Assembly: GCA_022925895.1 (NCBI GenBank) | Contig: JAKSYS010000543.1 | Location: 1 to 42,814 of the forward strand | Direction of reading: 5' to 3' | Length of the DNA: 42,814 nt | From: Fragilaria crotonensis | Taxonomy: Eukaryota > Bacillariophyta > Fragilariophyceae > Fragilariales > Fragilariaceae | Part shown: positions 5,097 through 15,907 of the stretch, piece after piece | Layout of the letters: each line of letters begins with the position of its first letter | How positions within the stretch are numbered: the stretch's first letter is position 1 | The notes under the pieces: generated by a model | The model's input: only the letters and a program-made list of their open reading frames with translations | What the model was told of the DNA's origin: nothing | The model's database searches: none | Made by a program: the position numbers and the translations under genes

Positions 5097-5439
5097 TGTT
5101 GTTAATCCGATTCGACCACAATACTATGAGGCCCTGAACCTTGTATTTGTCTTGTAGTGATTCTAACGGAGATACTAATGACAAGTAATGAAGTCAATCA
5201 AACTCACTCTTTACTCACTGGATTGTTTCGAAAGAATGATCTTTCGAAACACTTTATTATTCTTGCTATTCTTGCTGACCACACGTTCGTTAGGATCATT
5301 CCTGACCCTACCTTTTACGACGTCAGCCCACGAGACAGATGATGTCTCTCCGGTATCTATAGTTCCTCGTGTATGGTTACTGGCACTGTCACTCATGTAC
5401 TCGTTCATACCTAGGTCCGGTCGTTCTTTATTTCCAACA
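5097..5439 (-). repeat. 3' LTR (sense) of the Copia element
   Basis: It begins TGTTG and ends CAACA, and is 343 bp long. It matches the other LTR at 341 of 343 positions by eye, with no indels. On the minus strand it carries AATAAA (5253-5258), placed directly before the palindrome at 5225-5250. Confidence 0.95.
5225..5250. promoter_or_regulatory. Perfect 11-bp inverted repeat inside the LTR
   Basis: The arms GTTTCGAAAGA and TCTTTCGAAAC flank a 4-nt ATGA loop. The same structure is at 10960-10985 in the other LTR. On the sense (minus) strand AATAAA lies just upstream, so the hairpin sits where the transcript 3' end and the R region would be expected. Confidence 0.7.
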
Positions 5440-5448
5440 CGCTCCTCG
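5440..5448 (-). other. Weak candidate polypurine tract
   Basis: On the sense strand CGAGGAGCG directly abuts the 3' LTR. The position fits a plus-strand primer, but the purine run is short and interrupted. Confidence 0.3.
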
Positions 5449-5797
5449 GTCGGCATAGGTTGGGTGATGGCGAGAGTGTTCATGTGTTTGTAGCCCATGA
5501 TAACGTCCCGGAATTTCTTGAACAAAGCGCCTTGTAAAGGTTTAGTAAAAAAATCACCAACCATCTGTAGCGTTGGACAATGGCGGATAGTCATACCCTC
5601 GGTCTTGATCCGATCTTTCATCCAGAAGTATCGGATGTCAATGTGCCTGGACTTGGGACCGGCAGACATGCGTCCATTCGTCTCCAGCTTAATGGCACTT
5701 TCGTTATCCTGTTCGAGGATGTTCTCCTCAACCTTATAGCCCTGCGCCTCAAGGAAATTCTTCACCCAGATCGTATTCGGCAGGTAGTCACTCGCTC

Positions 5798-6085
5798 CTA
5801 CAAATTCAGCCTCGGTTGAGCTCTTTGTGTTGAGTTTCTGTTTCGTGGACTTACACAATATCCCACCCCGTCCGAGTGACAAAGTTCCCCAGTGTGGCTT
5901 CGCATATCTGGATGCACAGCATAGGAAGCATCTACCCATGTGCGGAGTCGATTCAAATCATCGGCGCCGATGGTGTACTCGATGTCCATGGATCCGCTGA
6001 TGTATTCCAGAACGCGTTTAAGTTTCAATTGGTCTTGCACCGTGCTTTTGGAAACTCGGGTACAGAGGAATGCGATGGCCAACAA
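5798..6085 (-). pseudogene. Copia segment linking RT to RNase H
   Basis: This frame continues the polyprotein after RT: LAIAFLCTRVSKST, then RVLEYISGSMD, then WVDASYAVHPDMRSHTG, which holds the first RNase H Asp. It starts in a different frame from the upstream RT. The break lies near 6095-6105, where the RT frame reads AKLLYVSY and the expected continuation 'RARVDLLLAIAF' is one base out of register. Confidence 0.75.
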
Positions 6086-7743
6086 CAGATCAACTCTTGC
6101 ACGTAGGATACGTACAGAAGCTTAGCGGACACACTGTGAAATGCCTCGCTTTCTTTCTTGCCCAGTCGCTTCGACTTCTCGTCTACTTCAAACAGGTTGC
6201 CATTCGCTGGCGTGGAAGCGGGTCTGGAAATAACTAGGCCTGACTCTGCAATAGCCTCGCTCAGGTAATCCTTCATCGTAATGATCGCGGTCTTCTCGTC
6301 GGTATATCGGATCTTCATTCCCAAGAAAACGTGTTCGCGACCTCTGGTGACCGTCATTTTATCAAACCGCCCCTCGATCTTGTGGATAATGTCGGTGACG
6401 ACATCGGGATCAACATGTGAGATTTTCATGTCGTCGACGTACCAGGCCACGGTGCACTGTTTTCCGTCAATCAAGCAGTTTGCGACGCATGGGTCATATG
6501 GATTCAGTTCGAAACCCATGTCTTTCAGGTTTTCAACAAATAACTTATACCATAATAGGGCCGATTTCACGCACCCGTAAAGTGCTTTGATAAGTCGGAC
6601 GTACAGTACTTCAACCCCGTTTTCCATTGTCACGAATTTCTCATGTTCGGGGTTCAATTGGCAGAGGATTCTGACCGACGCTCCTACGAACTTCATAATC
6701 ACAAAATCATCCATGAGGGCCTTCAGGTACGCACCGACCACGTCTGCGGTGGCCACGTCTCGAGCCTCGAAAGCTTCGATGATGATAGTCAGCATCAACG
6801 CATCGGTTGAAACGGTAGGGGAGGCGGTTTCGGACTTGTCGTAAAGGTTGCGTTGTGACCGTCCATCGGCGCATGTGCGACTTTTGAGCACTCCGTTTCG
6901 CTTCTCTTTGAATGTGTTTAGTGCCCGGATTGCTGCTTTCATCTGTTCCCTCGTGAGTTTTGAAGGGTCAAGCACTTCGTAGGCATCTAGGTCCTCCAGT
7001 TGCGAGAGTTCGGTCATGAGTGCAGCCTCGGCTGCCTTTCCGTGTTTGCGTAGACCAGCGCGTTCCGACATTTGTGTGCACGTAGTGGCCATGTGCATGA
7101 GCACGAAGTTGAATGCGAAACGTTGTCTGTCGTCCATGTTGATCAGTGATGCCTTCGTTAGCGCTTTCTGTAGCAGTTGTGTAGGAGGGTAGTAGGATTG
7201 TCCACCATGTGGGGCATCAATCGCGTCTTTGAAGGTGCCGCGGGTCACGGTCCTTGGTCGTAAGTAGTACGGTGGCACGCGTTCATCCGCGTGGTCCGCT
7301 CCTGTGTCGTGATCCGCTCCTTCATCTTGACCGTCTTCAGCGGGTTCGGGTGCGTTTGCGTTTGCGAGGTGTTCGGCCTCGTCTTCTGCAAATAGTTCGG
7401 CTTCGGCCGTTGGGTTCTCGTCAAGACTCCCAGCAGGGTGTTCTGAGTCGTCATCGAAAGGGTCGATGTCATCCTCATCATCAAAAGGGACAACGTCATC
7501 CTCATCGTCCTCGTTATCGGTACTGTCGGCGGCATCATTCGCTCCTTGGTCCGGGACAGCGGGGCCATCAAACAGGGGGGCGTCGACAGGGGCATAGAGA
7601 TCGTCAAGCTCGTGGAGGTCGATCGGGTCGTAATCGAGCGCGTCGAACGGGTCGTCAGCAGGGACGACGGTGGGGAGGGCGTAATCGACGTCATATTCTG
7701 TGTCATCGATGGGGTGATCGACGCCATTCGATGACGAAGCCAC
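6025..7743 (-). pseudogene. Copia reverse transcriptase segment
   Basis: This 572-codon frame begins with an Asp/Glu-rich linker (HPIDDTEYDVDYAL and further acidic runs) and the typical pre-RT stretch PPYYLRPR. The RT palm follows: ATADVVGAYLKA (first catalytic Asp), KALYGCVKSALLWYKL, DPCVANC and WYVDDMKISH (YVDD catalytic pair near 6431-6442), then KIEGRFDKMTVTRG and FLGMKI. These are standard Copia RT motifs and no catalytic residue appears lost. The upstream join to integrase is broken by a TGA at about 7753, where the expected PLIQERG sequence is one base out of frame at a C-run. Confidence 0.9.
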
Positions 7744-9045: not shown

Positions 9046-10407
9046 TTAGGCGCGCAATGTGTGAGTGCTCTTACGTATGTTGGTAAGCATGGAGGCATTG
9101 TTGAACACGGAGATGGTCGATTGGGAATCAAGTAGAATCCACTCTGGGTTGATTCGGAAGCATCGGCCTGCGCCATCATGTACGCATACTGCGTCAGGGT
9201 AGTGCCGCCGACGGATGTGGTTGCAGTCCCCTCGGGGCAGTTCGACGCATAGTGTCCAACGCTGTGACATTGATAGCATTCGATGCCATCGTGTGAGGCC
9301 GTTGTTGCCTGCCACCGATCCTTGTTGAGCGAAAGTCATTCCGCTCCCCGTGTCGGACCTGGTAGTGCCCGTCGCATTGGGGGCAGCCTGTTGTTGTCTG
9401 GGTCTCGTCGTGTTCTCCGGCGTGCGATAATTGACGAGCAGATTATATGCTGCAGTCACGTTGGATGGATACTCATCACGCCCCATCGCGTATTGATTGG
9501 AGAGGTGAGCTACGAGGGTTCCGTATCTGGAAGGATCGGATCCAGTGATCAATGCGATCGCCAACGTCTTTTCATAGGCTCTGGAGCGTCGATCGTCATT
9601 GGTGACTGCTGTCCCGTCTTCATTCACAGCAGGGATTAGTTTGTAGTTCACGGCGATGGTGCCGCCGTGATGATCAATCGTCACAGCCCATGCGCGGAGG
9701 TCTTCCAAGTATGAGGCTGGCGATTGTCCTACCTGTTGCTTGCAGTTCAGGAAACTGCGTTGGGCGTTCATGATGGAGATGAAACCATTTTTCTTCTCGT
9801 CGAATTGCAAGGTGATGGAACGAATCTGTTGGAGGAGCCAGAAGCAGTTGTTGATCTTCGTCTCGGATTTGAACTCCGTGAGGGACTTGAGTTTGTCCTT
9901 CATGGCTTCGCTACACTGGCCGAGTACAACGGCTTGTATAGTGGCAAGGTTTCCCTTGAATGCGCTCTTCCTCTTGACGAACTCACGTAGCTCCTGGTCC
10001 CAGATGGCCTTTTCCACGATGCTGGCTTCAGGGTCAAGTTCCACGGGCATTTCGAGCTGTGGGTTTTCCATCTCTTCCGAGAAGAGCGGAGTCAGATCCT
10101 CGGCGAACTTCAGGTTCTTCTTAACGTAGGCCTCGAGTGCTTCGCGCGTCTTTGCGAACTGACGTCGATCAGTTTGCTCCTCGAAGCATTCGAACACATT
10201 GGCGTTCATGCCCTCTGTGTCACCTTTGAAACCAGTTCGTGCTGGGCGGTTGTTTCCCCTTCCGCCTTGGGTGCGGTTATTGATGCGGTTTCCTCTTCCT
10301 CGATTGTTTCCTCGACCCGCCTGCCCGTTCCCGTTACTGGGTCCGGTCGCTCTGCTTGCGGCTTCCGTGACCCCGCTGATGGTCGAGTTGGCGACGGAGC
10401 TACTCAT
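9046..10407 (-). pseudogene. Copia Gag with zinc knuckle and protease, frame-broken
   Basis: The ATG at 10407 overlaps the stop of the leader ORF (ATGA). The N-terminus is rich in Arg, Gly and Asn (RGNNRGRGNRINNR, an RNA-binding style tail), followed by a helical Gag core. The CCHC knuckle (C-YQ-C-HSVG-H-YASN-C, 9237-9277) is read in a frame shifted from the main ORF, entered near 9285. The frame then returns near 9155 for the aspartic protease motif ILLDSQST (about 9115-9135) and FNNASMLTNIRKS. A further slip near 9050 separates this from the integrase frame. All domains are present, but three frame changes separate them. Confidence 0.85.
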
Positions 10408-10787
10408 CGAGTCTGAAGGCGGCGCACGTTATTCGGGGCTCGCCAGGTTCGCACTCCGTTGTCGGTCACGAAGTGTACTTGCTTGTTCGGTCCCTTGATC
10501 AGCACTTCTGTTACCGTGGCCGTTTTGCCTTCACTTTCGTTCCACTCCAAGCCGTTGTCCCAATTGGCCGGTTTATGGAGTTTGTTGACTATCCAAATTC
10601 TGTCTCCACGGGAAAATTCTCTCTTCGTTTCTCTCTCTTCGCTTGCAACGGCAACAGCTTCGTATGTAGCTTCCTCGCAGTCCTTCTCTGCGATTGCGTG
10701 TTCGAGCTGTTCCGTTAGTTCTGCCTTCTGTAGACTCAACACCTTCAATGCGTTTGTCAATTCTTGGATAGTTTTCTTCCTCTCCAT
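10404..10787 (-). CDS. Leader ORF upstream of Copia Gag (coiled coil plus small basic domain)
   Basis: From the ATG at 10787 this gives 127 residues. It starts 45 bp inside the 5' LTR border and ends in TGA, which overlaps the Gag ATG by four nucleotides (ATGA), an arrangement suited to termination-reinitiation. Residues 1-45 form a Leu-rich heptad stretch (MERKKTIQELTNALKVL..). Residues 60-125 read GDRIWIVNKLHKPANWD, then TATVTE, VHFVTDNG and TWRAPNNVRRL, like a small beta-barrel domain. The frame is open further upstream into the LTR but only with non-ATG starts. It is clean while the downstream Gag-Pol is broken. I know no function for it. Confidence 0.6.
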   Translation of the reverse strand: MERKKTIQELTNALKVLSLQKAELTEQLEHAIAEKDCEEATYEAVAVASEERETKREFSRGDRIWIVNKLHKPANWDNGLEWNESEGKTATVTEVLIKGPNKQVHFVTDNGVRTWRAPNNVRRLQTR

Positions 10788-10817: not shown

Positions 10818-10831
10818 TTCTTTCGAAACAA
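10818..10831 (-). promoter_or_regulatory. Candidate self-primer binding site of the Copia element
   Basis: On the sense strand the 14 nt directly after the 5' LTR read TTGTTTCGAAAGAA. This is exactly complementary to TTCTTTCGAAACAA inside the sense LTR (10958-10971, and 5223-5236 in the other copy). It does not look like the usual Copia primer site complementary to initiator tRNA-Met. Position and complementarity fit priming by the element's own RNA, as known for Tf1-type elements. This is an inference. Confidence 0.5.
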
Positions 10832-11174
10832 TGTTGTAAATCCGATTCGACCACAATACTATGAGGCCCTGAACCTTGTATTTGTCTTGTAGTGATTCTA
10901 ACGGAGATACTAATGACAAGTAATGAAGTCAATCAAACTCACTCTTTACTCACTGGATTGTTTCGAAAGAATGATCTTTCGAAACACTTTATTATTCTTG
11001 CTATTCTTGCTGACCACACGTTCGTTAGGATCATTCCTGACCCTACCTTTTACGACGTCAGCCCATGAGACAGATGATGTCTCTCCGGTATCTATAGTTC
11101 CTCGTGTATGGTTACTGGCACTGTCACTCATGTACTCGTTCATACCTAGGTCCGGTCGTTCTTTATTTCCAACA
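10832..11174 (-). repeat. 5' LTR (sense) of the Copia element
   Basis: It is 343 bp long, begins TGTTG, ends CAACA, and has two substitutions relative to the copy at 5097-5439. The palindrome is at 10960-10985. The target duplication TTAGC follows at 11175-11179. Confidence 0.95.
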
Positions 11175-11381: not shown

Positions 11382-11390
11382 CGTAACTAA

Positions 11391-11590
11391 GGCCCTCCCT
11401 TATCGAGGTCAAAACTCGAAGGTCAAAACTGACCCCCCAGTTTTGTTTTGAAAAAATTACCGGCCTTATCGGGAGCAAAGTTCGTGTCAAAACTAATTTC
11501 GTAGATTTTCAACTTTGTCCGTCAAAACTGGTTGACGAAGTTGGGGGTCAACTTTGACAACCAACTTTGCCGAACAAAGTTGACCTTTCT
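11391..11590. repeat. Left terminal and subterminal repeats of the Harbinger element
   Basis: After the terminal GGCCCTCCC, the motif GTCAAAACT occurs at least four times within 140 bp, together with inverted forms such as GGTCAACTTTGAC. Such subterminal clusters are commonly transposase binding sites. Here that role is inferred. Confidence 0.6.
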
Positions 11591-11725
11591 GAGTCGAGTC
11601 AATCGGAAAGCGTATCTTTCACATCGGAATCTTTTGCAATCGTCGCACAAAACGAGAACAAGAACAACAGCTGCCACCAACTACTTCATGCACATGTGAT
11701 CGTCAGCACAGTCCTGCTGAAGTTC

Positions 11726-13487
11726 ATGGGACAACTAATCAGTGTACCGGTGAGTTCAGATGCCGCATTCGCTTTGGATCGTCGACCAAAAACAATTTCA
11801 GAATGCATGGTGGGCGGGAAGATCAATGAAAGAATGTATCACGAGTTCAAGAAGAGATCATACGAGGAACTTGACCAGCATCTTGCTGATATGCTGTTCA
11901 CGAACTCCCTCCTACATGGGGAAGAAGAGCATGAAGGCAACGAAAATGAGCAGCAGCGTGTAACAACAACAAGGAAGGCAAAGAGAAGGAGAAAAGAAAA
12001 ACAAGTTGTGATGTATACAGACCCTTCTACTGGATTGCGGTGTCGATTGCACCCTAGGATGTCGTTGTGGTAAGTTTAACAAGTTATTCCTTTCCATTTC
12101 CGGAACAACACCCGTCTTTCCAGTATGTTCTAACACTTTTGCTGTTATTCCATTCCGCGACAGGTATAATATGTACGTAGAATCACCTTTCCTTGAAAGT
12201 CCTAGGTTCCATCGCATCTTTCGGAAACGTTTTAGGATGCCCTACAGATGCTTTCAAGAACTGGCTGCCATGCTTGCCGAGTCCCCACTTTTTGAACGGT
12301 GGAGAGACGGAAAAGCGGACGCCTTTGACCGACCAACAACACCTTTGCCGCTGCTTGTCCTATGTTGTCTTCGCTACATCGGACGAGGGTGGACGTTTGA
12401 TGACTTGTCAGAGAACACTGGGATCTCTGATGAAATCATACGAGTCTTTTTTCACCGATTCATCGAATTTGGTAGTACAGTCCTGTACAAGAAGCATGTC
12501 GTTGCTCCGGAATCTGCCGATGACGCTGCTGTTCACACAAAGGAATACGAAAAAGCTGGACTACCGGGTTGTGTTGGCTCGATGGATGCGACGCACATAC
12601 TCCTTGAAAAGGTTGAGTATCGGCTTCGTCAGAGTCACCTCGGATTCAAGAGCAGTCACACTTGTCGTACTTACAACATCACTGTGAACAACAGACGTCA
12701 AATTCTGGCAACGACAATGGGTCACCCAGCAAGGTGGAACGATAAAACCGTTGTGCTTTTTGATGATTTTGCGGTGGCATTGCATGAAGGGGAAAAACTT
12801 CAAGACGTCAGGTTTCACTTGTATGATCATGATGCATCTGGCAATGTTATAAAACAGACGTATGCCGGAGTTTGGCAGATTGTTGACAATGGTTATCTGA
12901 ACTGGTCAACGACTGTGCCGCCATTGAAAACATCGTGCAATCGCTCCGACATTCGCTTCTCAAAGTGGCTCGAGTCCATTCGGAAGGACGTCGAGTGTAC
13001 GTTTGGGATACTCAAAGGCCGCTTCCGAATATTAAAAACAGGTATTCGTTTGCTTGGACAAAAATCTGCTGATAAAATTTTTCTAACATGCTGCGCTCTT
13101 CACAATTGGCTGCTCAATGAGGACGGCCTCAGTGAAGGATGGGAAGATGGCGTGCCAAGTATCTGGGAAGGAAGCATTGGTTATCACGACGTTTGCGATG
13201 CTCAAGAACACCTTCCTGCCGCGGTACAGCGACTCATGTCTCCGACGCAATTGAGAACGTTCGATCTGTCTCGAGTTGGTTTGATGGGTGCTACTGACAA
13301 CGTTGTTTACCGTCACCGACAAGGGGACAATGACAACGATGACGCACAAATGTCTTGCAAGGTTGTCAAGAAGCTCAGCTTGAATTACTTCAGATCAAAG
13401 CTGATCAAACATTTCAGCATTGCGTTTCAAAGAAACGAAATCCAATGGCCAGGCAAACGGAATCAGCTGAACGAGTTGCCCTTCTAG
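11726..13487 (+). CDS. PIF/Harbinger transposase (two exons)
   Basis: This is a DDE endonuclease of the Harbinger type (DDE_Tnp_4 family), which cuts and pastes the element. Exon 1 ends at 12069 (TTGTG^GTAAGT) and exon 2 begins at 12164 (GCGACAG^GTATAAT). The join reads MSLWYNMYVESPFLES in frame. Catalytic residues are visible as Asp in GSMDATH, Asp in QIVDNGYL and Glu in KDVECTFGILKGRF, and the typical CALHNWLL ends the core. A helix-turn-helix-like YRCFQELAAML segment precedes it. The first in-frame ATG is 11726, giving 555 residues. The frame is open upstream to 11567, so an unseen upstream exon is possible. No frame break is present, so the enzyme may be intact. Confidence 0.9.
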
Positions 13488-13599
13488 TAGCTACTAAGAA
13501 TAGGATGCTTCTTTGTTGTCGCACATTACTACTAATTGAATCGTTTTTAGGTTCTACTATTACTTCGCTCTGCTTTTGTCATCGTTGTTTTTGTCTGCC

Positions 13600-13648
13600 G
13601 TTGTCAATCAGAGTCGTCATCATTCAGATGACTCTGATTAGCGACAAC
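13600..13648. terminator. Strong hairpin between the convergent Harbinger genes
   Basis: AATCAGAGTC (13606-13615) pairs with GACTCTGATT (13630-13639), and the outer arms GTTGTC and GACAAC extend the stem, with a 3-nt bulge. It contains the stop codon of the minus-strand gene and lies 110 bp past the transposase stop, so it may mark both transcript ends. That role is inferred. Confidence 0.5.
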
Positions 13649-15209
13649 GAAGGGAGGAGGACGAGGCTGAAAGCACTCGCGGATATCAACAGTGCAGTCG
13701 TAATATTCCTCGGTGCCTAATTCCTTCTCGGGCTCTGGCTCGTTTCGTCCGCCTTCTTCTTCATGACAAACAGCAGGGGAGCGATTGCGCTGTGAACTCG
13801 AAGTATCATACAACACTGATGTGGGAGTTGGGATCGAGACTCCTCTGGAACTTGCAGGCGTAGTAGAGCCTACGGTAGTACTGATAGATGAAGCACTGCT
13901 CTTCAAACGTTTGTTGTTGCTATCGTGAGATCCAAGGAGCGCATTGTTGATGAGTTCGTCACTAGTTCGGCGACGGTCTTCTATGAGACTCTGTTGCTCG
14001 GCAAACTCCGCCATCAATTTCTTTTTTGTCAGCCATAAGTTGTTTGATCTCCTTGAAGATATCGTCGTTCCGATCCGTTACTCCCCACTGCTTGGCGAGA
14101 TCCATATTAGTGTCAATTTGCGTTTGAATATGAAGAATCGCCGTAGAAAATGAATTATCAAGGCTTCTTCGGTCTTCCATTGAACGAGCTGACAGCAGCT
14201 TTGCAATCTCAATCTGTTGGTTGAGAGATTGTCCACCACGACGGAAAGGCGATGCTGGTAAAGCACCATCAGTGGTGGCTCGGCGACTAGAGCCTGCACT
14301 CGCTGCCTCTTTCTTTACTTGTCGCCTACTGTTTGCTCCCTTTTCTTCCTTCACGCTGTCACCGATCTGAAATTGTTTAGATTGGTAGACAGCACACTGC
14401 TGGGGATCCTCAATTATAAAGCCCCAAAGAAAAAATGCAATCATGCCAGAGAAACAATAATCCTCTGGCATTTCTTCGGGATTCACCACATCCAATTGTG
14501 AAGAAGGATCATGCTGGTGGTCATCTTTGTCGCCGGCTGTTGTCGACATAACATCGTCGTCGTCTTCGTTTTCACCACCACTCGAACCTCGAAGTTTTAC
14601 ATACATACATTCGCGAATGTAACGATGGTAATCTGCAATTGTTTTCCCTGATGGAAGATTTCCATCCTTGTACTCGCTATCGACACCTTTAGCACATGCA
14701 AGTGCCTTCCTCCCATTCCTCAACACTTCCTTGGCGCCTCGCATTATGGTTTTGTCGGAAACATGGACCGGGTTACTAAAATTCTTGGCAACCAACATTG
14801 ATGTGGTTATACCATCGGACTTATTTGCATAGACTGTGAGTTTGCCACCAGAGCTTTTCTGCGGGAAATAGCAATCCTTGAGTACCTTGTCGTACTCGTT
14901 CCGAGATGACCCGGCAACTGTCCCAAAACCAGACAATGTTGAGGCATTCCGGTCATCATTTGTGGCGACAGGGACATTGTCATACAAATGAGAAAACTGG
15001 TTGAGTCCCAAAACCATCTGCTCTGGGAGCGTCATGATGTCACTTGCACCGGTAACACCGATAATGCTTTCACGAAGCATTTGCCTCTGATCTTTCTCTG
15101 TCATGCTCCTAGCAGAAGAAAATACAACAGATTCATAGGCAGCAAAGAACATGGTTCTTTGTAACTCTTTCATTAGCTTGGACCCGCCAACAAACTTAAG
15201 GGACTCCAT
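13604..15209 (-). CDS. Second gene of the Harbinger element, unknown function, one frame break
   Basis: The first part (13962-15209, from the ATG MESLKFVGG) and the second (13604-14017) lie in two frames that meet at an A6 run on the coding strand (14022-14027). Removing one A would read 'ADKKLMAEFAEQQSLIEDRRR' continuously, giving about 530 residues. No MYB/SANT domain, the usual second Harbinger protein, is recognisable. Visible features are a Ser/Thr-rich region with acidic EDDDD, a conserved-looking MPEDYCFSGMIAFFLWGFI segment, Arg-rich patches, and a C-terminus rich in Pro and Glu. A DNA-binding partner of the transposase is the natural guess from position. The sequence itself does not show it. 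Confidence 0.6.
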
Positions 15210-15283
15210 CTTCTTCCTAGCATTCCTGTTTGATGATGTTGGCAACCATGGTGAAGAACAGCGACGGTGGAATTATACTACCT

Positions 15284-15301
15284 CCACTAAACATTTAGTG
15301 G
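15284..15301. promoter_or_regulatory. Short palindrome upstream of the second Harbinger gene
   Basis: CCACTAAA and TTTAGTGG flank a 2-nt CA centre, about 75 bp upstream of the minus-strand ATG at 15209. It could be an operator-like protein site. There is no direct evidence. Confidence 0.3.
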
Positions 15302-15359
15302 ATAAGTACCCGGAAAACCTCTGTTTTGTTTTGGTACCGGTAAGGGCGTTGAACAAGAT

Positions 15360-15425
15360 TTTTTCCAAAACCAAACTGGGGGGTCAGTTTTGACATGAAA
15401 AAATGGTCCTCGATAAGGGAGGGCC
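15360..15425. repeat. Right terminal inverted repeat of the Harbinger element
   Basis: Reverse-complemented, it begins GGCCCTCCCTTATCGAGG and continues with GTCAAAACTGACCCCCCAGT, matching the left end. It is followed by TGA, where TAA would be expected. Confidence 0.85.
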
Positions 15426-15907
15426 TGAATGGGAGAATTCCATACCGGTATGTAGTCGTACAGTACGTCGTAGTTCAGTTTTCAGTAGACAGTAGATATT
15501 GTTCCCTCTGCGTGTACCGACTGAGCGATCTTAAAAAACATTGTATATATCTTTGAATATATTTATTATAGAATGTTCGAATTACACGTATTAAAATACT
15601 CGGAGTACAAATCAACTTTTCCTACGAAATTCAGGTTGCTCCTTTGGAGACAGAAATACCCGACGCCGTATCAGTAGTCAGTAGAAGACAGTACTACCAT
15701 ACACTACTTCAGCTGATCCGGCGTGATCCGTGGAGCACATACTTCAGACGACTCCGGACGCGTTTTGGGGGGTGAGAGCAAGCGTTCAAGTTGTCTTCGA
15801 CACCACGCCGACCCAAGAGGGACCTGCGCGCGACTGAAGTTTGGTTTTATGGAACAACAAATCAACAGATCGTTCTCAGTCGTCATCACATCGTTTTCCA
15901 CGATATC
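15426..15907. other. Gene-free stretch upstream of the ERD2-like gene
   Basis: It holds an AT-rich segment near 15540-15610 (TATATATC, TTTATTATAG) that may belong to the ERD2 promoter. No convincing coding frame is seen. Confidence 0.4.

Follow-up and report, generated by a model that had tools for sequence, protein, structure and literature searches.

RESULTS

Architecture of the Copia element

The window, by which we mean the whole 42,814-nt stretch of Fragilaria crotonensis DNA analysed here, carries a Copia element on the minus strand of the contig. The element has a pair of LTRs, each 343 bp long with TG...CA ends and 99.4% identical to each other, and is bounded on either side by the target-site duplication GCTAA (Table 1). 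Its reverse transcriptase (RT) matched RVT_2 (PF07727, E 6.4e-17), which, together with the TG...CA LTR pair and the target-site duplication, assigns it to Ty1/copia (Pseudoviridae); the RT is of the RVT_2 type and not of the Ty3-like type found in Tf1/sushi chromoviruses. Upstream of the RT ORF, in the position of an integrase, lies a putative 404-aa ORF without a Pfam match. The ORFs of the element other than RT had no Pfam family match at E 0.01, and an Rfam search of the window gave no match. An ATG with similar-looking codons soon past the primer site was also seen by eye at L009, L012 and L021, comparable to the small first ORF of the window. Adjoining the Copia element, positions 11390-15426 of the window resemble a DNA transposon, with inverted repeats of 67 nt (84%) enclosing a 438-aa ORF (12171-13487, plus strand) and a 427-aa ORF (13962-15245, minus strand).

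Table 1. Features of the Copia element, in positions of the window
Feature	Position	Strand	Remarks
5ʹ LTR	10832..11174 (11174-10832 read in sense)	-	343 bp, TG...CA; flank GCTAA 11175-11179
3ʹ LTR	5097..5439 (5439-5097 read in sense)	-	99.4% identical to 5ʹ LTR; flank GCTAA 5092-5096
Primer binding site, 14 nt, TTGTTTCGAAAGAA	10818..10831	-	Abuts LTR end; complement of 10958-10971
Proposed self-primer segment, arm Aʹ, TTCTTTCGAAACAA	10958..10971	-	Putative RNA 5ʹ end or nt 2-15
TCA ahead of Aʹ	10972..10974	-	With 10971-10968 = TCATTCT, fits YCAYTYY; A 10972 = putative +1
Upstream arm A	10975..10986	-	12-bp hairpin with 10959-10970, loop 10971-10974
Copy of the 14-nt segment in 3ʹ LTR	5223..5236	-	Both hairpin arms would be in RNA there
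Small first ORF	10404..10787	-	Begins at first ATG past primer site; no Pfam match
gag-position ORF, 453 aa	9046..10407	-	No Pfam match; named by position only
Integrase-position ORF, 404 aa	7805..9019	-	No Pfam match; named by position only
Reverse transcriptase ORF	6025..7743	-	RVT_2, PF07727, E 6.4e-17
RNase H-position ORF	5211..5939	-	Extends into 3ʹ LTR; no Pfam match; named by position only

The primer site is an exact complement of an LTR segment

The sequence-only reading of this DNA had pointed out that the 14 nt immediately inside the 5ʹ LTR are perfectly complementary to 14 nt within the LTR, and this proved exact. Directly after the terminal CA of the LTR, TTGTTTCGAAAGAA (10831-10818, minus strand) is complementary at every position to TTCTTTCGAAACAA (10971-10958), and a 15th pair also forms between 10957 and 10832, the last base of the LTR. 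When the 14-mer was sought in the window at up to one mismatch, three matches were obtained, namely the primer site and the two LTR copies, against a mean of 0.02 in shuffled sequences. Among 5000 dinucleotide-shuffled LTRs none reached 14 nt, the longest exact complement being 12 nt in one shuffle. The fold of a 181-nt RNA of the window was mildly stable (z -1.53; 16 of 200 shuffles folded equally well), and the primer helix was present in both the MFE and the centroid structures.

The palindrome that had been noted beside the segment is real and corresponds to a 12-bp hairpin of 10986-10975 with 10970-10959, closing a TCAT loop. The neighboring AATAAA is present as described, at 10992-10987, but is not conserved, being found within the 66 nt before the segment in only 6 of 31 elements, and we rejected it as part of the unit. 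A direct repeat relating the primer site to the upstream arm A was likewise rejected as a real relation, as arm A drifts (for example, in L020 and L021) while the primer site and Aʹ stay matched.

Related elements in the F. crotonensis genome

Relatives were collected from one 62-Mb F. crotonensis genome, whose diatom origin is borne out by 19 silicon-transporter family matches, 18 of them above the family cut-off (best E 4e-193). A DNA search led to 19 places. With the motif TCTCGAAACAATYCMR, allowing at most one mismatch, 130 places were found, of which 100 were listed, and the reversed pattern used as a control gave eight. The 19 LTR matches and 60 further stretches were inspected for an LTR end followed by the site, and 31 rows were obtained, 11 from the former (including the window and a near copy, L023) and 20 from the latter. 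The eight LTR matches and 40 stretches that gave no row appear to be 3ʹ LTRs, solo LTRs and unrelated matches. These 31 rows, 30 of them distinct, come from a single genome, include some close copies and were chosen partly by searching for the complement. We therefore also used a criterion independent of the complement, namely two same-strand motif matches 2.9-6.1 kb apart, that is, an element with both LTRs. There were 25 such pairs among the 100 listed places, which with the window and C471 made a set of 27 elements.

The site was present in all 27 elements of the complement-independent set, with 14 Watson-Crick pairs in 22 of them. All 14 pairs were kept through two G-U wobbles in the 5ʹ LTRs of L103 and L110 and through one in L015, and L054 and L062 had one mismatch each. 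In all 31 rows the site abutted the CA of the LTR. Two elements, L103/L135 (C327) and L110/L134 (C445), had different versions of the segment in the 5ʹ and 3ʹ LTRs, the 5ʹ version being accompanied by a matching upstream arm, which could reflect old divergence or recombination between elements.

RT-based relatives were found neither in viral contigs nor in prokaryote contigs, and the DNA pattern had no match in viral contigs. The primer-site pattern occurred in five prokaryote contigs (titled as Bacteroidales, Odoribacter and Prolixibacteraceae MAGs), which we took as unrelated. In an unrooted RT tree, the window, L023, L022 and L013 (the last being the RT that belongs with the site in L016), all of this clade, fell on one side of a branch with 100/100 support, far from the 30 others.

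The segment and the site change together

In the 30 distinct rows, pairing was seen in 418 of 420 helix cells (99.5%), compared to 92.5% with shuffled partners and 40.5-54.3% with partners slid by one to three columns; the shuffles take no account of relatedness, whereas the slid controls preserve it. Changes on both sides were found at six of the 14 pairs, in 28 cells, and covariation was 0.234 versus 0.089, with 0/500 shuffles as high for either measure. One of five covariation measures, further pair types, was unremarkable (62/500 shuffles as high). With the alignment alone as input, RNAalifold predicted the helix together with the 15th pair. A conserved second U5 helix, which Tf1 reportedly needs, was considered and rejected, as RNAalifold showed only two 3-bp helices besides the main one.

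Seven main variants of segment and site were distinguished, one being that of the window. The others were TTCTCTCGAAACAA/TTGTTTCGAGAGAA, TTATCTCG.../...CGAGATAA, CTTTCTCGAAAC.../...CGAGAAAG, CTTTCTCGCAAC.../TTGTTGCGAG..., ...CTCAAAACAA/TTGTTTTGAG... and ...CTCGCGAAACAA/TTGTTTCGCGAG.... The CTTTCTCGCAACAA type constitutes a natural family distinct from the window type.

Changes were further counted on a tree built from U5 and the leader with both segments excluded, on which several branches are long or weakly placed, making the counts approximate. At position 3 there were five changes in the arm, five in the site and five jointly (5/5/5), and positions 5, 6 and 9 each had 1/1/1. Positions 1 (3/4/4), 8 (1/2/2) and 7 (2/1/3, wobble or decay) were out of perfect step, and position 2 had 0/1/1. 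On the tree, the arm and the site change together at most varying positions, and at the level of sequence this joint change argues strongly for use of the pairing. The compensatory changes that the sequence-only reading had proposed to look for in related copies were clearly found, both in the six double-changed pairs and as joint change on the segment-free tree.

Comparison with tRNAs and with other Copia copies

The sites were compared with 28 tRNA genes of 15 kinds from 26 stretches. These were the 28 of 63 genome tRNA matches that lie off C880 and C881; the set leaves out the 35 matches on these two contigs, taken as organellar, and the initiator tRNA gene, for a likely copy of which 27 letters are known. 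For the seven site variants, the best match among the 28 genes was 8-9 of 14 positions, the same as for permuted controls, and against tRNA 3ʹ ends with CCA the best was 9 of 14. Four tRNA-Met-type motifs were sought in seven loci of the window clade and none was found. A tRNA primer was accordingly rejected for lack of an above-chance match among the 28 genes, and a tRNA match kept in place of the complementarity, the outcome named beforehand as contrary to self-priming, was not seen in this set.

The other Copia copies of the same genome differed. Initiator-tRNA-Met-type sites were present in the 5ʹ regions of nine of ten such copies, so that the expectation that Copia elements normally use tRNA-Met held within this genome and contrasts with the window clade. 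GGTTATGAGCCC was found in three of the ten and CGCTTCCTCTGCG in six; the tenth, L154, had neither motif. An LTR pair was found for seven of the other copies, with the tRNA-type motif sitting at the LTR end, and the longest LTR complement of the site was 4-8 nt in these seven. The complements of the two motifs lie within an initiator-tRNA-like sequence, CAGAGGAAGCGTGTTGGGCTCATAACC, which occurs once in the genome and was found with a pattern derived from GGTTATGAGCCC and CGCTTCCTCTGCG themselves.

From the layout of a tRNA, we take GGTTATGAGCCC to be of the half-tRNA type, with the cut at the anticodon; a primer for CGCTTCCTCTGCG would presumably end past the D arm. At L145, L146 and L151, GGTTATGAGCCCAAG is located at the LTR end, as in the half tRNA-iMet type. 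At L147-L150, L152 and L153, CGCTTCCTCTGCG is complementary to the initiator-tRNA-like sequence over at least CAGAGGAAGCG, and the primer of these six would end after the D arm, not at the anticodon or the CCA end.

The LTR hairpin and the presumed RNA start

The segment Aʹ folds with an upstream arm in 31/31 rows, with 8-13 of its 14 bases paired. Folding was performed row by row and not by column, the loop and the register varying in the alignment. In several rows the pairing of the arms was maintained via G-U wobbles, which points to a hairpin that acts as RNA rather than DNA. In the 3ʹ LTR of the window, the segment is closed in a hairpin of -15.5 kcal/mol (z -5.86). The hairpin of the window contains the palindrome TTTCGAAA, whereas most rows do not retain it (CTCGAAA and others) but keep the complementarity.

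Immediately before Aʹ, all 31 rows have an A, and in 25 of them the triplet is TCA. The surrounding sequence matched YCAYTYY, described as the oomycete initiator (PMC3599244), exactly in 21 of the 31 rows and not in the other 10. Position 15 of the site is A or G in every row and never T, which would pair with the A before Aʹ, so on this side the complementarity stops after 14 nt in every row. This constant end fits a primer whose 5ʹ end would be at Aʹ or one base before, and together with the initiator-like sequence it suggests an RNA start near 10971/10972. U5 of the 31 elements also has a largely conserved motif around GTTTGATTGACTT (~10938-10926, minus strand), located ~34-46 nt past the presumed RNA start.

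DISCUSSION

What was directly observed here, namely the complementarity, its position and conservation, the compensatory double changes and the lack of an above-chance match to the tested tRNAs, is best explained by a diatom Copia clade whose reverse transcription is self-primed in the manner of Tf1. We put the probability of this explanation at roughly 0.87. The self-priming proposed for this element in the sequence-only reading is thus supported by the covariation (418/420 paired) and by the tRNA comparison (best match 8-9/14). In the mechanism that we envisage, transcription would begin inside the LTR, probably at the A of TCA (10974-10972), and the first ~14-15 nt of the RNA would fold back and pair with the primer binding site at the border of the LTR and the internal region, ~140 nt farther downstream. 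RNase H would, as in Tf1, cleave the RNA past the helix; the freed 3ʹ end would be extended, and minus-strand DNA would begin exactly at the LTR end. Plus-strand DNA copying the attached primer would then rewrite the binding site from the RNA start, and because of this rewriting the segment and the site would stay in step.

Priming by a tRNA or tRNA fragment outside the tested set, with the LTR match as a by-product, would make the clade resemble the nine of ten other Copia copies here that have tRNA-Met-type sites, and the tested set, with 15 kinds, is incomplete. We nevertheless consider it very unlikely: the best tRNA match was no better than that of permuted sequences, and since each of the seven site variants complements its own LTR segment, each variant would call for a tRNA of its own. 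Chance, or shared ancestry of the repeats without function, could be invoked on the grounds that copies from one genome are related and that the shuffles ignore relatedness, but this is extremely improbable in view of the paired changes at six positions, the joint change of arm and site at most varying positions of the tree, and the slid controls, which keep relatedness and yet pair at only 40.5-54.3%.

The complementarity might instead serve another RNA role, such as dimerisation, packaging or a promoter hairpin, with something else as the primer. The doubling of the segment as a hairpin arm in 31/31 rows and the palindrome TTTCGAAA in the window hairpin would be in keeping with such a role. 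The partner, however, sits exactly where a primer site is expected, abutting the LTR CA in 31/31 rows, and the palindrome is lost in most rows with the complementarity retained, leaving little room for this explanation. Self-priming could also occur in trans, through a 14-nt piece from another RNA of the family, be it the partner RNA within the particle or its 3ʹ LTR copy. The 3ʹ LTR holds the same segment, cis and trans look alike in sequence, and in L015, L103 and L110, whose LTRs have diverged, the 3ʹ segment is the better fit to the site. Against this, the 3ʹ copy is predicted to be shut in its hairpin (-15.5 kcal/mol, z -5.86, in the window) and the predicted fold contains the cis helix, and we regard priming in trans as rather unlikely, with the cis reading preferred.

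Going by the sequence, both hairpin arms would be in RNA only at the 3ʹ LTR, and because of this the hairpin is proposed to hide the 3ʹ copy. We offer tentatively, as possible rather than probable, a reading in which the hairpin is a switch that depends on the start: arm A would cover Aʹ in DNA and in the 3ʹ LTR of the RNA, a start in the loop would uncover the 5ʹ Aʹ alone, and only a true 5ʹ end would reach the primer site.

In Tf1, the first 11 nt are described as pairing with the primer binding site, with an RNase H cut between nt 11 and 12 (PMC7175516), and Tj1 has been proposed to work like Tf1 (PMC4600332). Like Tf1, Tj1 and sushi, the diatom clade has a primer site whose complement lies in the LTR, where the RNA presumably starts, and no match to the tested tRNAs; its site is located at the LTR end. 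Unlike them, the window element is a Copia element (RVT_2) and not Ty3-like, the complementarity spans 14 nt rather than 11, and the presumed RNA start divides an LTR hairpin of which the segment forms one arm; for the diatom clade the mechanism is a prediction from sequence. The sequence-only reading had called such self-complementarity a hallmark of Ty3-like elements. The likeness to the Tf1 type stands, but the restriction to Ty3-like elements does not, as self-priming is also predicted in plants, for the TAR lineage of Ty1/copia (Houba and Osr-1), from blastn matches of 10 bp or more, according to the accessible text of PMC6317226. TAR shares with the diatom clade the Copia superfamily and an LTR segment complementary to the primer site; it is a plant lineage whose prediction is described as blastn-based, whereas a compensatory-change test was applied here. 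In the fungal GalEa Copia elements, a conserved hairpin site is described as replacing the primer binding site, and a complementary U5 repeat was not detected by its authors (PMC5445492, accessible text). GalEa and the diatom clade are both Copia without a tRNA-type primer binding site and with a hairpin involved, but the hairpin is at the position of the primer binding site in GalEa and in the LTR in the diatom clade. The CoDi lineages are diatom Ty1/copia elements, reported with TG...CA LTRs in most families (PMC2806351), and the present element resembles them in both respects. By word search, the main text of the CoDi paper does not discuss the primer site, tRNA, priming, hairpins, palindromes or polypurine, and its single PBS denotes a buffer (PMC2806351); a literature search that stopped short of most subscription papers found no report of self-primed Copia elements in diatoms.

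In the sources accessible to us, self-priming has been shown for the Ty3-like Tf1, and for Copia it is a prediction in one plant lineage. Here, compensatory changes provide strong sequence evidence for it in a diatom Copia clade, with tRNA-type Copia elements of the same genome as a control. This suggests that self-priming arose, or was retained, in at least two deep branches of the LTR elements. The seven natural primer/site pairs constitute a set for testing how an element picks its own RNA end. If the hairpin does act as a switch, the element would mark its own full-length 5ʹ end as the primer, while the identical 3ʹ copy would stay silent. One diatom genome would then contain three ways of priming Copia: by the element itself, by a half tRNA-iMet cut at the anticodon, and by an iMet fragment ending past the D arm.
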